From Candidatus Iainarchaeum sp. (GTDB taxonomy: Archaea > Iainarchaeota > Iainarchaeia > JAGGVJ01), in the NCBI GenBank assembly GCA_021158055.1, contig JAGGVJ010000032.1, positions 1 to 11,565 on the forward strand: 11,565 bases of DNA, read 5' to 3'. Below the pieces are notes generated by a model. The model did no database searches. It was given only the letters and a program-made list of their open reading frames with translations, and was not told the origin of the DNA. Of the stretch, positions 353 to 8,839 are shown one piece after another; position 1 is the first letter of the stretch, and every line of letters begins with the position of its first letter. The position numbers and the translations under genes are program-made.

Positions 353-889
353 ATGGAATTTGGCGTGAAGAAAGTTGCATTTGCTCTTTTTTCTTTTTTG
401 GTTTTGATGGCTGTTTGCCTTTTGCTCGGGTTGTTTGTTGAACAGTTTTCTTTTATGAAAATGGATAACCCGACCTTTGCGCTCATAACTGTTCCGGCTT
501 TTTTTCTTGGGTTTTTGCTGCCGGAAGCCCTGTTAAAGTATTTCGGAGAAGAGCCGTTTGGTTTTGCGTTGTCTGTTCCGGTGATATTTGTTTTCCTTAC
601 GGTTGCGGGGTTTGTTGTTTCGGTTTCAATTTTTCTCCCCGCGCTTTACGGCAGTTCCAATTTGGATTTTGCAGTGAATGTGTTTTCGCCAAAAGAAATG
701 TCTTTTGACACGCAGTATCTTGAAGACGGGACCGCTAAAACAATTTTGATATACAATCCTTGTTTGATGCTTGTTAATTCTGCAGTAATTTTTGTTGCAA
801 TATTCGGGTTTTTTGGCATATTAACTGCGAACATATTTGACTGGTACAGAAAAGAACACTGTAAAGAACAGAAGAGCAAGGGTAATTGA
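353..889 (+). CDS. Small four-helix membrane protein, unknown function
   Basis: This 178-residue protein is not recognised. It shows four hydrophobic segments at about residues 7-29, 41-61, 70-98 and 136-162, so it should sit in the cytoplasmic membrane. The roughly 37 residues between helices 3 and 4 are the largest soluble loop, and the C-terminus is short and basic (DWYRKEHCKEQKSKGN). No catalytic motif is visible. The start is firm: an in-frame TAA lies directly before the ATG, and a GGTGA element at 343-347 gives a Shine-Dalgarno-like site 5 bases upstream. The stop lies 22 bp before the synthetase-like gene on the same strand, so the two are probably co-transcribed. Whether they work together is unknown. 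Confidence 0.8.
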   Translation: MEFGVKKVAFALFSFLVLMAVCLLLGLFVEQFSFMKMDNPTFALITVPAFFLGFLLPEALLKYFGEEPFGFALSVPVIFVFLTVAGFVVSVSIFLPALYGSSNLDFAVNVFSPKEMSFDTQYLEDGTAKTILIYNPCLMLVNSAVIFVAIFGFFGILTANIFDWYRKEHCKEQKSKGN

Positions 890-911: not shown

Positions 912-3689
912 ATGATTGCTGAAGTTGAACGCGGGCTTGACGCGAAAAAAATGGAAAAGCAGATTATTAGCCATTGGAAGGAAAACGATTGCGCTTTCCA
1001 GGCAAAAACAGCACCCCACAAAAAGAAACAGTTAGTCTTTTTTGACGCGCCTTTAACCACTGCAAAATCAAAGAGGTCAAGTGAACTGCGAAAGGAGATT
1101 TTACGCGACACACTTGCAAGGTTTTGGTCAATGAATTGTTTTTCACCGGAGCCGCTTTCGGTTTTTCTTCCTCCTCTTTCGGTTACTTTTGGTTCGCATG
1201 CTTTGATTGAAGAAGAAAAAAAGCAAATGGAACAAGTTGGAATCTGGACCTGCCCTGATTCTGTTTATACGATTTCCTCCAAAAAGTTTATGAATGTCGC
1301 GTGGAGCACAGTAAAGCAGCTGTATGAAAAAAATCTGCTTTATCCTGGAAAGATAATTTCGCAGGTTTGCCCTTCATGCAATGAGGTTTCAAGGCAAAGG
1401 GAGAACGAGCAGTCCAAAACAACAGGGGTAATCGTAAAACTTGGTTTTTCTGACGGCAACGGGAGTTTGGCGGTGTTTGCCGCAAACCCGAAAGATTTTC
1501 TTGACGCTTGCGGTGTTTCGGTTTCATCCAGGTCCCGGTATGTCCGGTTTGAATTTGCAGGCGAACAGATAACGGCAGAGGAGTCTGTTGCAGAATTTAT
1601 TTCAAAAAAGACACTGAAACCCCTGAAGAAACAAGAGGTTCTTTCAAAAGAAATTGCGGGCCGCGAAGTCAACAATTTGGTTGCGGGAAATTCTTTCGGG
1701 GTTGATGTTTTGGGCGGGTTCAAGGTAGTTGTTCAAAACCCGAGGGACGCATTGCAGCTAAACCAGGGGCTGAAACTTGTTGTACCGACTGCAAGTCAGA
1801 AAGATTACTTAATTGCCCTTGAGAACAACCTGAAAATTGTTCAAAATGTCAGCAAGTTGGAGTCAGCCGACAAAAAAAGACCTGCAGGCAAAAAAATTGA
1901 TTTGGACAGCAAAGTTTTAAGCAGCCTTGACAAAAAACAGCTTTTGGTGGAAAAGGTGCCTTCAGTGGTGTTTTCACAGGACTGTTTGTTTTGCGGTTCA
2001 GAAACAAAAGCGTTGCTTGGCAGCCACTGGATGTTAAGGGCAGTGGATTTCAATTTTGAGCTTATAAAGTCGCTTGATTCAGTTGAATTTGAACCGGATG
2101 AAAGCAGGCAAAAAGTAAAAAAGAATCTGATGTCAACTGATTTTCCGATTTCCCGCGTCGGCGGTTCCGGAATCCCTCTTCCTTTTTGGGTGTGCGACAG
2201 GTGCGGTAAACTGGAGATAGTCGGAAGCGTTTCAGAGCTTTATGAAAAAAGCAACAAAAACAACCGTTTTTCAGATGACTTTGATTCAGTGACAGATTCG
2301 TTTTGCGGGCTTGTAAGGGAAACAACTTGGAGTTGCGGCAGTTGCAGCAACGGCAAGATGAAGTGGGTTGATCAAATATTCTCAAGGTCTTTTGAACTGG
2401 CAGTGACGCCGTTTTTGCCTGGCCGAAAAGACAGTGAGTTCCAACCCGCTGATTTTGTGCTTGCAAACAGGATTGACAAGATGCATTTGCTGCTTTTGTT
2501 GCCGTTTGCGTTGCACCGGAAACCGTTTTTTTCAAGGATTTACTGCACAAATTACCCTGATTCAGAAAATCAAAGCCAGTTGCCTGCAAGCGGAAAAAGT
2601 GCAGATGCCTTGAGGATAGCAAGCCTTTCAGACAAATCACTTGCACTTGACATCAGTCTTCTTGACGAGCCGGAGGAGTTTATCAGTTCTCTTTTAAAGC
2701 TTCACAGCAATATGGTTTACTTTTTTTCGTTTGAGTTCCAACCGGAAGTTTACGTTGTCGAGCATTCAGAGCCAGAGGATTTGTGGCTTGACTCAAGGCT
2801 GAATTCACTGAGCAGAGACGTGGCTGATGCTTACGAAAAACTTGATTTCAAGCGTGTGTTTTTTGAAATAAGAAATTTTGTCGAAAAAGACCTGCTGGAA
2901 TTTTTTGTCCCGCTGTCAAGGAAGAAACTCTTGATTCGCGATTCAAAGCACCCGGAAAAACAGGCTGCTTTCAGGAGCATTTACGACGCGCTTGTTCAAG
3001 TCGCCTTTCTTTTGGCGCCGATGGCACCGTTTGTTTCAGAAAAAATTCACCTTGACTTGGTGTACCCATCAGACAATGCAAGCACTCCCACAATTCACGC
3101 CAAGAGATGGCCCGGGTTTGCGCAAATGAAAATAAATTCTGAAAAAGAAGAGCGAATGGGCCTGGTAAAGGAAATTGTTTCAGTTGCGGGGGTCGAAACA
3201 GGCAGGGGTGAAAAAGATCTGTTTGTGCCTTTCGAGTCGGCAGTGATTTTTTCAGACGTGCAGAAAGTAGAGAAAGCGGTGACTGAAAACAAGCACATTC
3301 TTGAATTTTTCCTTAATGCGAAGGATATTGAGGTGAAGCCCCTTGCAGGTTCAGTTACCAAGGAATCAGTTGACTTTTCAAAGGGAAAAATTAAGCTTGT
3401 CCATTCAAAGACAAACGAATTTGAAGCAGAGGGAAAGGCAAACAAGCTCATAAAAGAAGTGGGTGTTTTGCGAAGCGAGCTTGGCATACTTCCAAAAGAA
3501 GAGATAATCCTTGAAGTTGCGGCTTCAAAAGAACTTGTTGCAGAACTTTCCGGTTTTGAGAAAAACATAAAGTTCATGTCGTTTGCAAAAAGCCTGATTT
3601 TTTCCGAAAAAATTCCGGCGCTTTCATCAATGTCAAAAAAAGTGGTTGTTTTCGGCCAGGAAGTCACGATTACAGTTGCAAAGAAATAA
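912..3689 (+). CDS. Isoleucyl-tRNA-synthetase-like paralog lacking catalytic motifs
   Basis: This 925-residue protein aligns along its length with archaeal IleRS, which is usually about 1,040-1,070 residues. Visible matches are an N-terminal EKQIISHWKENDCAFQ segment (15-30), VFFDAP at the Rossmann entry (42-47), the WSTVKQLYEKNLLYPGK insert helix (131-147), FPISR...GIPLPFWVCDRCG (411-432) matching the WCISRQRYWGTPIPIW region, PADF (512-515), SADALRIASL (563-572), the anticodon-binding bundle (about 625-716, with SRLNSL and LLAPMAPFVSEKI) and the C-terminal domain. HIGH is replaced by RSSE (55-58) and the KMSKS loop is deleted (536-566). The CP1 editing signatures are also lost. Four CxxC pairs remain (153/156, 358/361, 428/431, 475/478). 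Aminoacylation is therefore unlikely; a tRNA-binding, regulatory or scaffold role is inferred. An in-frame TGA at 897-899 limits the start. GAAGG at 898-902 is a weak ribosome site for ATG 912; ATG 951 is an alternative. It is not an ordinary pseudogene: the frame is intact throughout. Confidence 0.85.
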   Translation: MIAEVERGLDAKKMEKQIISHWKENDCAFQAKTAPHKKKQLVFFDAPLTTAKSKRSSELRKEILRDTLARFWSMNCFSPEPLSVFLPPLSVTFGSHALIEEEKKQMEQVGIWTCPDSVYTISSKKFMNVAWSTVKQLYEKNLLYPGKIISQVCPSCNEVSRQRENEQSKTTGVIVKLGFSDGNGSLAVFAANPKDFLDACGVSVSSRSRYVRFEFAGEQITAEESVAEFISKKTLKPLKKQEVLSKEIAGREVNNLVAGNSFGVDVLGGFKVVVQNPRDALQLNQGLKLVVPTASQKDYLIALENNLKIVQNVSKLESADKKRPAGKKIDLDSKVLSSLDKKQLLVEKVPSVVFSQDCLFCGSETKALLGSHWMLRAVDFNFELIKSLDSVEFEPDESRQKVKKNLMSTDFPISRVGGSGIPLPFWVCDRCGKLEIVGSVSELYEKSNKNNRFSDDFDSVTDSFCGLVRETTWSCGSCSNGKMKWVDQIFSRSFELAVTPFLPGRKDSEFQPADFVLANRIDKMHLLLLLPFALHRKPFFSRIYCTNYPDSENQSQLPASGKSADALRIASLSDKSLALDISLLDEPEEFISSLLKLHSNMVYFFSFEFQPEVYVVEHSEPEDLWLDSRLNSLSRDVADAYEKLDFKRVFFEIRNFVEKDLLEFFVPLSRKKLLIRDSKHPEKQAAFRSIYDALVQVAFLLAPMAPFVSEKIHLDLVYPSDNASTPTIHAKRWPGFAQMKINSEKEERMGLVKEIVSVAGVETGRGEKDLFVPFESAVIFSDVQKVEKAVTENKHILEFFLNAKDIEVKPLAGSVTKESVDFSKGKIKLVHSKTNEFEAEGKANKLIKEVGVLRSELGILPKEEIILEVAASKELVAELSGFEKNIKFMSFAKSLIFSEKIPALSSMSKKVVVFGQEVTITVAKK

Positions 3690-3767: not shown

Positions 3768-5036
3768 ATGAAAGTTTTTGTTAAAACATTCGGATGCGCC
3801 ATGAACAAGGCTGATTCAGATTTGCTCAGGACATATATTTCTGCAGAACACGAAGTGGTTTCAGATGAATGCAAAGCAGATGCGGTTGTAATCAACACTT
3901 GCGCGGTCAAGACCCAGACTGAAAACGCGATGATCCGGCAGATAAAAGTGCTTTCGTCTTCAGGCAAACCTTTTGTTGTCGCGGGGTGTCTCCCGAAAAT
4001 CAACATGCCTCGCATAAGAGATGTTTGTCCGCATGCAGCGTGTGTTGACACAAAATCGATGGAAAAGATAAACCGCGCACTGGACAGTGCAGTGAACAGG
4101 TCGCCTGCTTTTTTTTCAGGTGAAAAAAGAACGCAGATGATTCCGACAGACAACAAGGCAAGGGAAAGCAAGGTAATTGCAGTGATTTCGATTGCCGAAG
4201 GCTGCCTGTCTGCGTGCAGTTATTGTGGGACAAGGCTTGCAAGGGGAAAACTCCAGAGTTTTTCGCAAGCACATATCGAACGTGAATTTGACAACGCGCT
4301 GAAAAATGGTTTCAAAGAGTTTTGGCTTACGGCACAAGATACTTCCGCGTTCGGCGCGGACTGCGGTACTTCACTTGATGCTCTTCTTTCAGGCCTTCTT
4401 TCAAGACAAGGGGAGTTTCGCATACGCATTGGGATGATGAACCCAAAGCATCTTTTTCCGATTCTTGATGGCGTTGTTGAAGCCCTGAAAAACGACAACA
4501 TGTATAAATTTTTGCATTTGCCTGTGCAGTCCGGAAGCGATTCGGTTTTAAAAGACATGAACAGAGGTTATTCAAGAGACGAATATTTTGGTCTTGTTAA
4601 AGAGCTGAGATCAAAAATTAAAGATCTGACCTTAAGCACGGATATAATTGTGGGTTTTCCAAACGAAACCGGGTCTGATTTTGAGGACACACTGGATCTT
4701 TTAAATCAGGTTAAACCGGACATAACAAACATTTCACGTTTCGGGGTGAGACCAAATACCACAGCAGCAGAAATGCCTCAGCTGCACGATCAGGTGAAAA
4801 AAGACAGGTCAAGGGTTGTTTCAAAGCTTTGCGCTGATTTGAGTTTTGAAAACAACAAAAAAATGGTCGGCAAAGTGCAGAGGTCACTTGTAAGCGGTCT
4901 TGGCAGGAAAGGGAATTTCGAGGCAAGAACCCAAAACTACAAGCCGGCGATCTTAACGGAAGCGGCTTTGGGTGAGTTTGTGGACCTGAAAGTAAAAAAA
5001 GCACACCGCACGTACCTTGACGCGGAATTGGTTTAA
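3768..5036 (+). CDS. tRNA-t6A37 methylthiotransferase, archaeal CDKAL1/e-MtaB type
   Basis: This 422-residue radical-SAM enzyme is expected to add a methylthio group to t6A at position 37 of ANN-decoding tRNAs, giving ms2t6A and stabilising codon-anticodon pairing. The N-terminal methylthiotransferase domain (about 1-120) has the three cysteines of the auxiliary 4Fe-4S cluster in family context: TFGC10AMNKADS, NTC45AV and AGC74. The radical-SAM core (about 135-360) has C146-x3-C150-x2-C153 (EGCLSACSYC) plus the LHLPVQSGSD and STDIIVGFPNE segments. A TRAM RNA-binding domain fills about 365-422. KADS after the first cysteine motif favours the archaeal/eukaryotic e-MtaB branch over bacterial MiaB. 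A TTG at 3747 would add seven residues, but ATG 3768 begins exactly at the family-typical MKVFVKTFGC. It lies 78 bp after the synthetase-like gene on the same strand. The gene looks complete and functional. Confidence 0.93.
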   Translation: MKVFVKTFGCAMNKADSDLLRTYISAEHEVVSDECKADAVVINTCAVKTQTENAMIRQIKVLSSSGKPFVVAGCLPKINMPRIRDVCPHAACVDTKSMEKINRALDSAVNRSPAFFSGEKRTQMIPTDNKARESKVIAVISIAEGCLSACSYCGTRLARGKLQSFSQAHIEREFDNALKNGFKEFWLTAQDTSAFGADCGTSLDALLSGLLSRQGEFRIRIGMMNPKHLFPILDGVVEALKNDNMYKFLHLPVQSGSDSVLKDMNRGYSRDEYFGLVKELRSKIKDLTLSTDIIVGFPNETGSDFEDTLDLLNQVKPDITNISRFGVRPNTTAAEMPQLHDQVKKDRSRVVSKLCADLSFENNKKMVGKVQRSLVSGLGRKGNFEARTQNYKPAILTEAALGEFVDLKVKKAHRTYLDAELV

Positions 5037-8614: not shown

Positions 8615-8719
8615 AAAAACCAATTGGTAATCTGTTTACGAATCAATTGATAATTGGTTTACGAATCAATTGATAATTGGTTTACGAATCAATTGATAAT
8701 TGGTTTACGAATCAATTGA
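8615..8719 (-). repeat. 23-bp-period dyad array in the nrdD leader
   Basis: Units start at 8638, 8661, 8684 and 8707 with an exact 23-bp period. Each begins ACGAATCAATTG and continues ATAATTGGTTT; the last copy is cut after TTGA. A diverged fifth copy occupies 8615-8637 and carries the perfect palindrome ACCAATTGGT (8619-8628). Each full unit holds the dyad CAATT-GAT-AATTG, extendable to an imperfect 19-bp symmetry. The array ends about 28 bp before the nrdD start codon and lies between it and the likely promoter, so it is probably transcribed. It looks like a multi-site operator for a dimeric regulator, though small RNA hairpins in the leader are also possible. Confidence 0.9.
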
Positions 8720-8839
8720 AATTAATTTAGTACAGATTATGAAGAAAAGAGTAAAAACTTGTTAATATATGTTTTGTGTAAGTAAAAATTGATATAAAAA
8801 GCAAACATTTTTCATCAAAAATCTTCATTTTTCAAACAT

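Follow-up and report, generated by a model that had tools for sequence, protein, structure and literature searches.

What does a gene of the isoleucyl-tRNA synthetase (IleRS) type do when it has kept its full length and carries neither HIGH nor KMSKS? We examined this on contig JAGGVJ010000032.1 of the uncultured archaeon Candidatus Iainarchaeum sp. (assembly GCA_021158055.1), where the whole analysed stretch of 11,565 nucleotides is referred to as the window. A preliminary description had called the gene a relic, and proposed a profile search, a structure prediction and a search for a canonical ileS elsewhere in the genome as checks. Our reading, to which we assign a probability of roughly 0.7, is that the gene product is an IleRS paralog of full length that no longer forms adenylate and has probably given up editing too; the gene would be retained for a non-catalytic role, with a separate canonical IleRS charging tRNA-Ile.

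The pseudoenzyme gene starts with ATG and forms a single frame of 925 codons with zero internal stops (Table 1). Its coordinates and intact codons had been given exactly in the preliminary description, and all of the IleRS landmarks named there could be located in the translated frame (EKQIISHWKEN, VFFDAP, ISRVGGSGIPLPFW, SADALR, SRLNSL and LLAPMAPF). IleRS is the top profile and fold match across the whole length of the protein. The TIGR00392 (ileS) profile scores 159.9 bits (E 8.3e-47), which falls short of the curated cut-off of 621 bits for a functional IleRS. Pfam recognizes the anticodon-binding domain at E 5.9e-18 and, more weakly, tRNA-synt_1 at E 2.3e-12, and the closest solved structures in a PDB sequence search are IleRS enzymes (1e-30). 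An AlphaFold2 model, run with the window protein and 45 IleRS sequences, reached a pLDDT of 79 and a pTM of 0.75 and superposes on IleRS2 over 882 residues with a Z of 32.1, ValRS being second with 24.4 (Foldseek was also run). Because an alignment of canonical IleRS biases prediction toward that fold, the model speaks for compatibility with the IleRS fold and is not proof of it; in the prediction the fold appears kept, and the least confident parts, residues 83-94 and 551-560, are the sites of the lost GxDxHG and KMSKS segments. The computations show that the pseudoenzyme descends from IleRS.

They also show that every class I signature motif has been lost and that the fold-defining residues are retained. 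HIGH, its active variant GXHH and KMSKS are all missing, with RSSE and SQLPA found instead. The preliminary description had placed RSSE where HIGH is expected and had seen a shortened KMSKS segment; alignment against canonical IleRS from its own class agrees on the former and gives SQLPA for the latter, the next loop being about 11 residues shorter. The DQxRGWW stretch is reduced to DKMH followed by a deletion, so that its Q and R are gone. The editing motifs are affected as well, and these losses, like those of Q and R, go beyond what had been described before: the WTTTPWTLPSN motif is lost, the H of HTAPGHG is Leu, and the Asp D298 is the sole editing-site residue remaining. All 8 Cys of the zinc-ligand type, on the other hand, are retained.

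Table 1. Features of the pseudoenzyme gene and its surroundings, in window positions.
Feature	Residues	Positions	Strand	Basis
IleRS-derived pseudoenzyme gene, 925 aa		912..3689	+	frame, profile, PDB and fold matches
FFDAP, remnant of class Ia DGPP motif; D and first P kept	43-47	1038..1052	+	alignments
RSSE at the HIGH position	55-58	1074..1085	+	alignment with same-class IleRS
GxDxHG and ~25 residues missing; model confidence <50 at 83-94	79-95	1146..1196	+	alignment, model
CPSC, zinc-ligand-type pair	C153, C156	1368..1379	+	conserved Cys kept
FAANPKDF replacing editing motif WTTTPWTL	189-196	1476..1499	+	alignments
CLFC, zinc-ligand-type pair	C358, C361	1983..1994	+	conserved Cys
CDRC, zinc-ligand-type pair	C428, C431	2193..2204	+	conserved Cys
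CGSC, zinc-ligand-type pair	C475, C478	2334..2345	+	conserved Cys
YPDSENQSQLPASGKSADALR, KMSKS segment lost, loop shortened; low confidence at 551-554 and 558-560	548-568	2553..2615	+	alignment, model
Anticodon-binding domain (Pfam Anticodon_1), best preserved part	623-760	2778..3191	+	Pfam, identity
C-terminal domain, DUF5915 match at E 3.7e-4, under the curated cut-off	829-924	3396..3683	+	Pfam
t6A37 methylthiotransferase (TIGR01578), downstream neighbour; homologs start at same ATG		3768..5036	+	profile
Hydrophobic protein, 178 aa, upstream, 22 bp before the pseudoenzyme gene		353..889	+	no family match
Hydrophobic protein, 250 aa		5144..5896	+	
Tandem array, 22-bp unit GATAGGCACATAAAATTACTTT, 5.2 copies, 98% identical, contig edge		1..115		
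Tandem array, 23-bp unit, 4.5 copies, nrdD 5' end		8621..8723		

These losses are distributed unevenly along the protein. Of the 158 alignment columns in which 27 canonical IleRS show 90% conservation or more, the pseudoenzyme retains 66 overall; it keeps 9 of 13 in the anticodon domain, 8 of 25 across the HIGH/GxDxHG region and only 3 of 20 in the second catalytic (DQxRGWW/KMSKS) half. Identity relative to canonical IleRS, taken domain by domain, likewise peaks at 0.70 in the anticodon domain and falls to 0.39 in the second catalytic half and 0.30 in the zinc stretch of residues 346-380. The pseudoenzyme has lost R797 and R805, C-terminal Arg residues that canonical IleRS conserve, and tRNA binding may therefore have changed.

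The search for a canonical ileS elsewhere in the genome was successful. It encodes 1010 aa with HMGH and KFSKS, and is split across contigs C26 and C17, which are joined by an exact 127-bp overlap. ValRS and LeuRS are likewise encoded, with their motifs present, in this 1.15-Mb genome, which is 95% complete with 0.05% contamination. The start of the canonical ileS is seen on two contigs (L044 on C26 and L048 on C41), which agree at 98.7% along 151 bp before diverging upstream, where C26 has radical-SAM genes between ileS and a gene common to both contigs; the difference looks like strain variation around ileS.

The claim made for the pseudoenzyme is a claim about one genome. In the 87 genomes of its own phylum (and 55 relatives) we found canonical IleRS or nothing and no pseudoenzyme ortholog, and the 24 well-sequenced class relatives have one IleRS-sized frame plus ValRS-sized frames and no counterpart. 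Nor was there an ortholog among some 725 genomes from four other archaeal phyla, namely the Micrarchaeota (301 genomes), the Nanoarchaeota (a sample of 371) and the phyla of genomes G093 (19) and G094 (34). In the large searches, scoring covered the two top candidates of each genome. IMG/VR held no ortholog, plasmids and phages gave distant IleRS only, and a genome_contigs search found none, its alignment scan being keyed on WTTTPWTL, which the pseudoenzyme lacks, and hence blind to orthologs. The matches checked for motifs (L015-L043 and L131-L150) were, wherever they covered the segment in question, canonical or a known type of motif variant. As an aside, two IleRS, one from a class relative (L040, genome G020) and one from the Micrarchaeota (L144, genome G391), have ALHH at the HIGH position (APPALHHIEM), which resembles the mupirocin hyper-resistance type A/GXHH motif of IleRS2 (PMC10485003).

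The pseudoenzyme gene is followed, 78 bp downstream on the same strand, by the gene for a t6A37 methylthiotransferase. A canonical ileS lies directly upstream of this gene, also on the same strand, in G002, a member of the same class where some 20 bp separate the two genes, and in G188 of the Micrarchaeota, and so the pseudoenzyme may occupy an old ileS locus, the adjacency being sporadic. More generally, class I synthetases repeatedly adjoin the methylthiotransferase gene (L164, L147 and L161), which directly follows ileS in G002 and G188 but directly precedes MetRS in G016; the synthetase in G016 had been considered as a second relic and was rejected as a MetRS. Hydrophobic same-strand proteins flank the pseudoenzyme and methylthiotransferase genes on either side, with zero match for either of them in Pfam or NCBIfam. 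Pfam and profile searches revealed no biosynthetic cluster in the window, and Rfam and tRNA scans of it were empty. The 22-bp array at the contig edge probably caused the assembly break, and the 23-bp array overlaps the listed TTG start of nrdD, a gene that may actually begin at a more internal position.

Two alternatives concern what the gene is. That it arose instead from ValRS, or from an older class Ia synthetase, is very unlikely, even though on so long a branch (about 5 substitutions per site at its end in our trees, where the median is 0.3-0.6) the AU test rejects neither a grouping with the ValRS of the genome (p 0.305) nor one with its own IleRS (p 0.21). The profile check gives about 160 bits for the IleRS model versus 102 for the best ValRS model, the fold comparison a Z of 32 versus 24.4, and the identity is about 23% to the canonical IleRS of the same genome versus 16% to its ValRS. 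A pseudogene in early decay, in which a stop codon has yet to arise, would account for the long end branch and for the lack of an ortholog in the genomes searched, but is quite improbable, since the protein has diverged to about 23% identity with no stop or frameshift, and its losses cluster in the catalytic segments, sparing the eight Cys as well as the residues of the anticodon domain. A random sequence of the same composition would be expected to contain about 57 stops in 925 codons, where we observed 0. The synonymous codon score of the gene, 0.101, falls inside the span seen for native genes (0.058-0.128) and lies 14 sd above that of random synonymous choice (-0.143, sd 0.017). Recent decay is thus argued against by the stop-free frame, the native codon usage, the low identity to the own IleRS and the near-complete, clean genome. 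From the open frame, the codon usage and the preferential loss of catalytic residues we infer that the gene is probably under selection, as the preliminary description had suggested from the stop-free 2.8-kb frame; its word relic is less likely to be apt, as the gene looks maintained. The presence of a canonical ileS, together with native codon usage and the missing stops, therefore points to a maintained pseudoenzyme and not to a fresh pseudogene.

Given that the chemical machinery is erased while the body and the tRNA-binding parts are kept, another tRNA-related job is probable, and our best guess, with binding judged from sequence, is a tRNA-binding, non-charging factor. Such a protein would keep the IleRS body and the anticodon-binding part and be unable to activate isoleucine; tRNA, most likely tRNA-Ile, would be bound by the anticodon-binding domain together with the C-terminal one, and would stay uncharged. 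The tRNA might be sequestered, tRNA-Ile might be handed to an enzyme that modifies it, for example the adjoining t6A37 methylthiotransferase, or the pseudoenzyme might regulate the active IleRS. Although doubtful, it is conceivable that the lineage's native IleRS gene, sitting in an old ileS-methylthiotransferase locus and relieved by another ileS copy, came to encode a dedicated tRNA-Ile binder that does no charging and offers the anticodon loop to the neighbouring t6A37 methylthiotransferase. If true, a synthetase scaffold would have been reused as an RNA-modification cofactor.

Two further alternatives would leave the protein with a chemical role. A repurposed enzyme moving isoleucine from the Ile-tRNA made by the canonical IleRS to another acceptor has a precedent in SbzA, the IleRS-like transferase of SB-203208 biosynthesis (PMC6331615), and would fit the kept fold and anticodon domain. 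SbzA, however, retains HIGH- and KMSKS-like motifs, and its published model uses His61, His64 and Lys608; the pseudoenzyme has no such motifs with active-site His and Lys, the corresponding positions are gone, and the window has no biosynthetic cluster, which makes a transferase of this kind unlikely. It is hardly credible that the protein still functions as a synthetase by means of an ATP site that escapes recognition: HIGH can vary, as the active GXHH-type IleRS2 with positions 1 and 3 naturally swapped demonstrates (PMC10485003), but RSSE contains no histidine at all, the GxDxHG, DQxRGWW and KMSKS segments are missing simultaneously, and the canonical ileS already meets the need.

Full-length synthetases without chemistry reveal which synthetase parts are useful alone. 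Found in an archaeal genome of 1.15 Mb, for which a spare 2.8-kb gene is costly, an IleRS case would extend the class Ia examples to one without even adenylation, and it would connect a synthetase scaffold with the A37 modification of tRNA in a way that can be tested.

Non-catalytic synthetase paralogs as such are established, as had been noted previously for HisZ and the second LeuRS of Sulfolobales, both of which are covered in PMC9437257; what appears to be new, from one genome, is an IleRS-derived paralog lacking both motifs. The preliminary description knew of no such IleRS case. In the open-access literature we found no IleRS-derived protein lacking both HIGH and KMSKS; SbzA is a described IleRS-derived non-synthetase, but one that retains motifs like these. 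As with paralogs of the HisZ/LeuRS-I kind, the pseudoenzyme coexists with the canonical gene in the same genome, and its catalytic residues are lost with the fold kept, according to the alignment and the predicted structure. It resembles canonical IleRS (TIGR00392; for example the Priestia megaterium IleRS2, 8c8u/8c8v) in domain order, in fold over about 880 residues, in its zinc-type Cys and in its anticodon domain, and differs in lacking the catalytic signature motifs and the Thr-rich editing motif and in scoring 160 bits against a cut-off of 621. It shares with SbzA the status of an IleRS paralog distinct from the housekeeping synthetase, whereas SbzA has HIGH/KMSKS-like motifs, charges weakly, belongs to a biosynthetic cluster and is bacterial (PMC6331615). 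LeuRS-I of the Sulfolobaceae, in the portion of PMC9437257 that reports Weitzel et al. 2020, still makes leucyl-adenylate, does not aminoacylate and binds tRNA; on that account both are archaeal second copies of a class Ia synthetase with a changed editing domain, the absence of aminoacylation and the binding of tRNA being predictions for the pseudoenzyme, which derives from a different synthetase and has its adenylation motifs erased. HisZ is a regulatory HisRS paralog without adenylation (PMC9437257), a non-catalytic state that we predict for the pseudoenzyme too; HisZ comes from HisRS, is bacterial and serves HisG as its regulatory subunit, whereas the pseudoenzyme is IleRS-derived, archaeal and full length with its anticodon domain kept. 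The GXHH-type IleRS2 (PMC10485003), finally, is also an IleRS with an altered HIGH, but there the change is confined to a swap of positions 1 and 3 in an active enzyme, whereas in the pseudoenzyme RSSE has no His and the other motifs are lost too.
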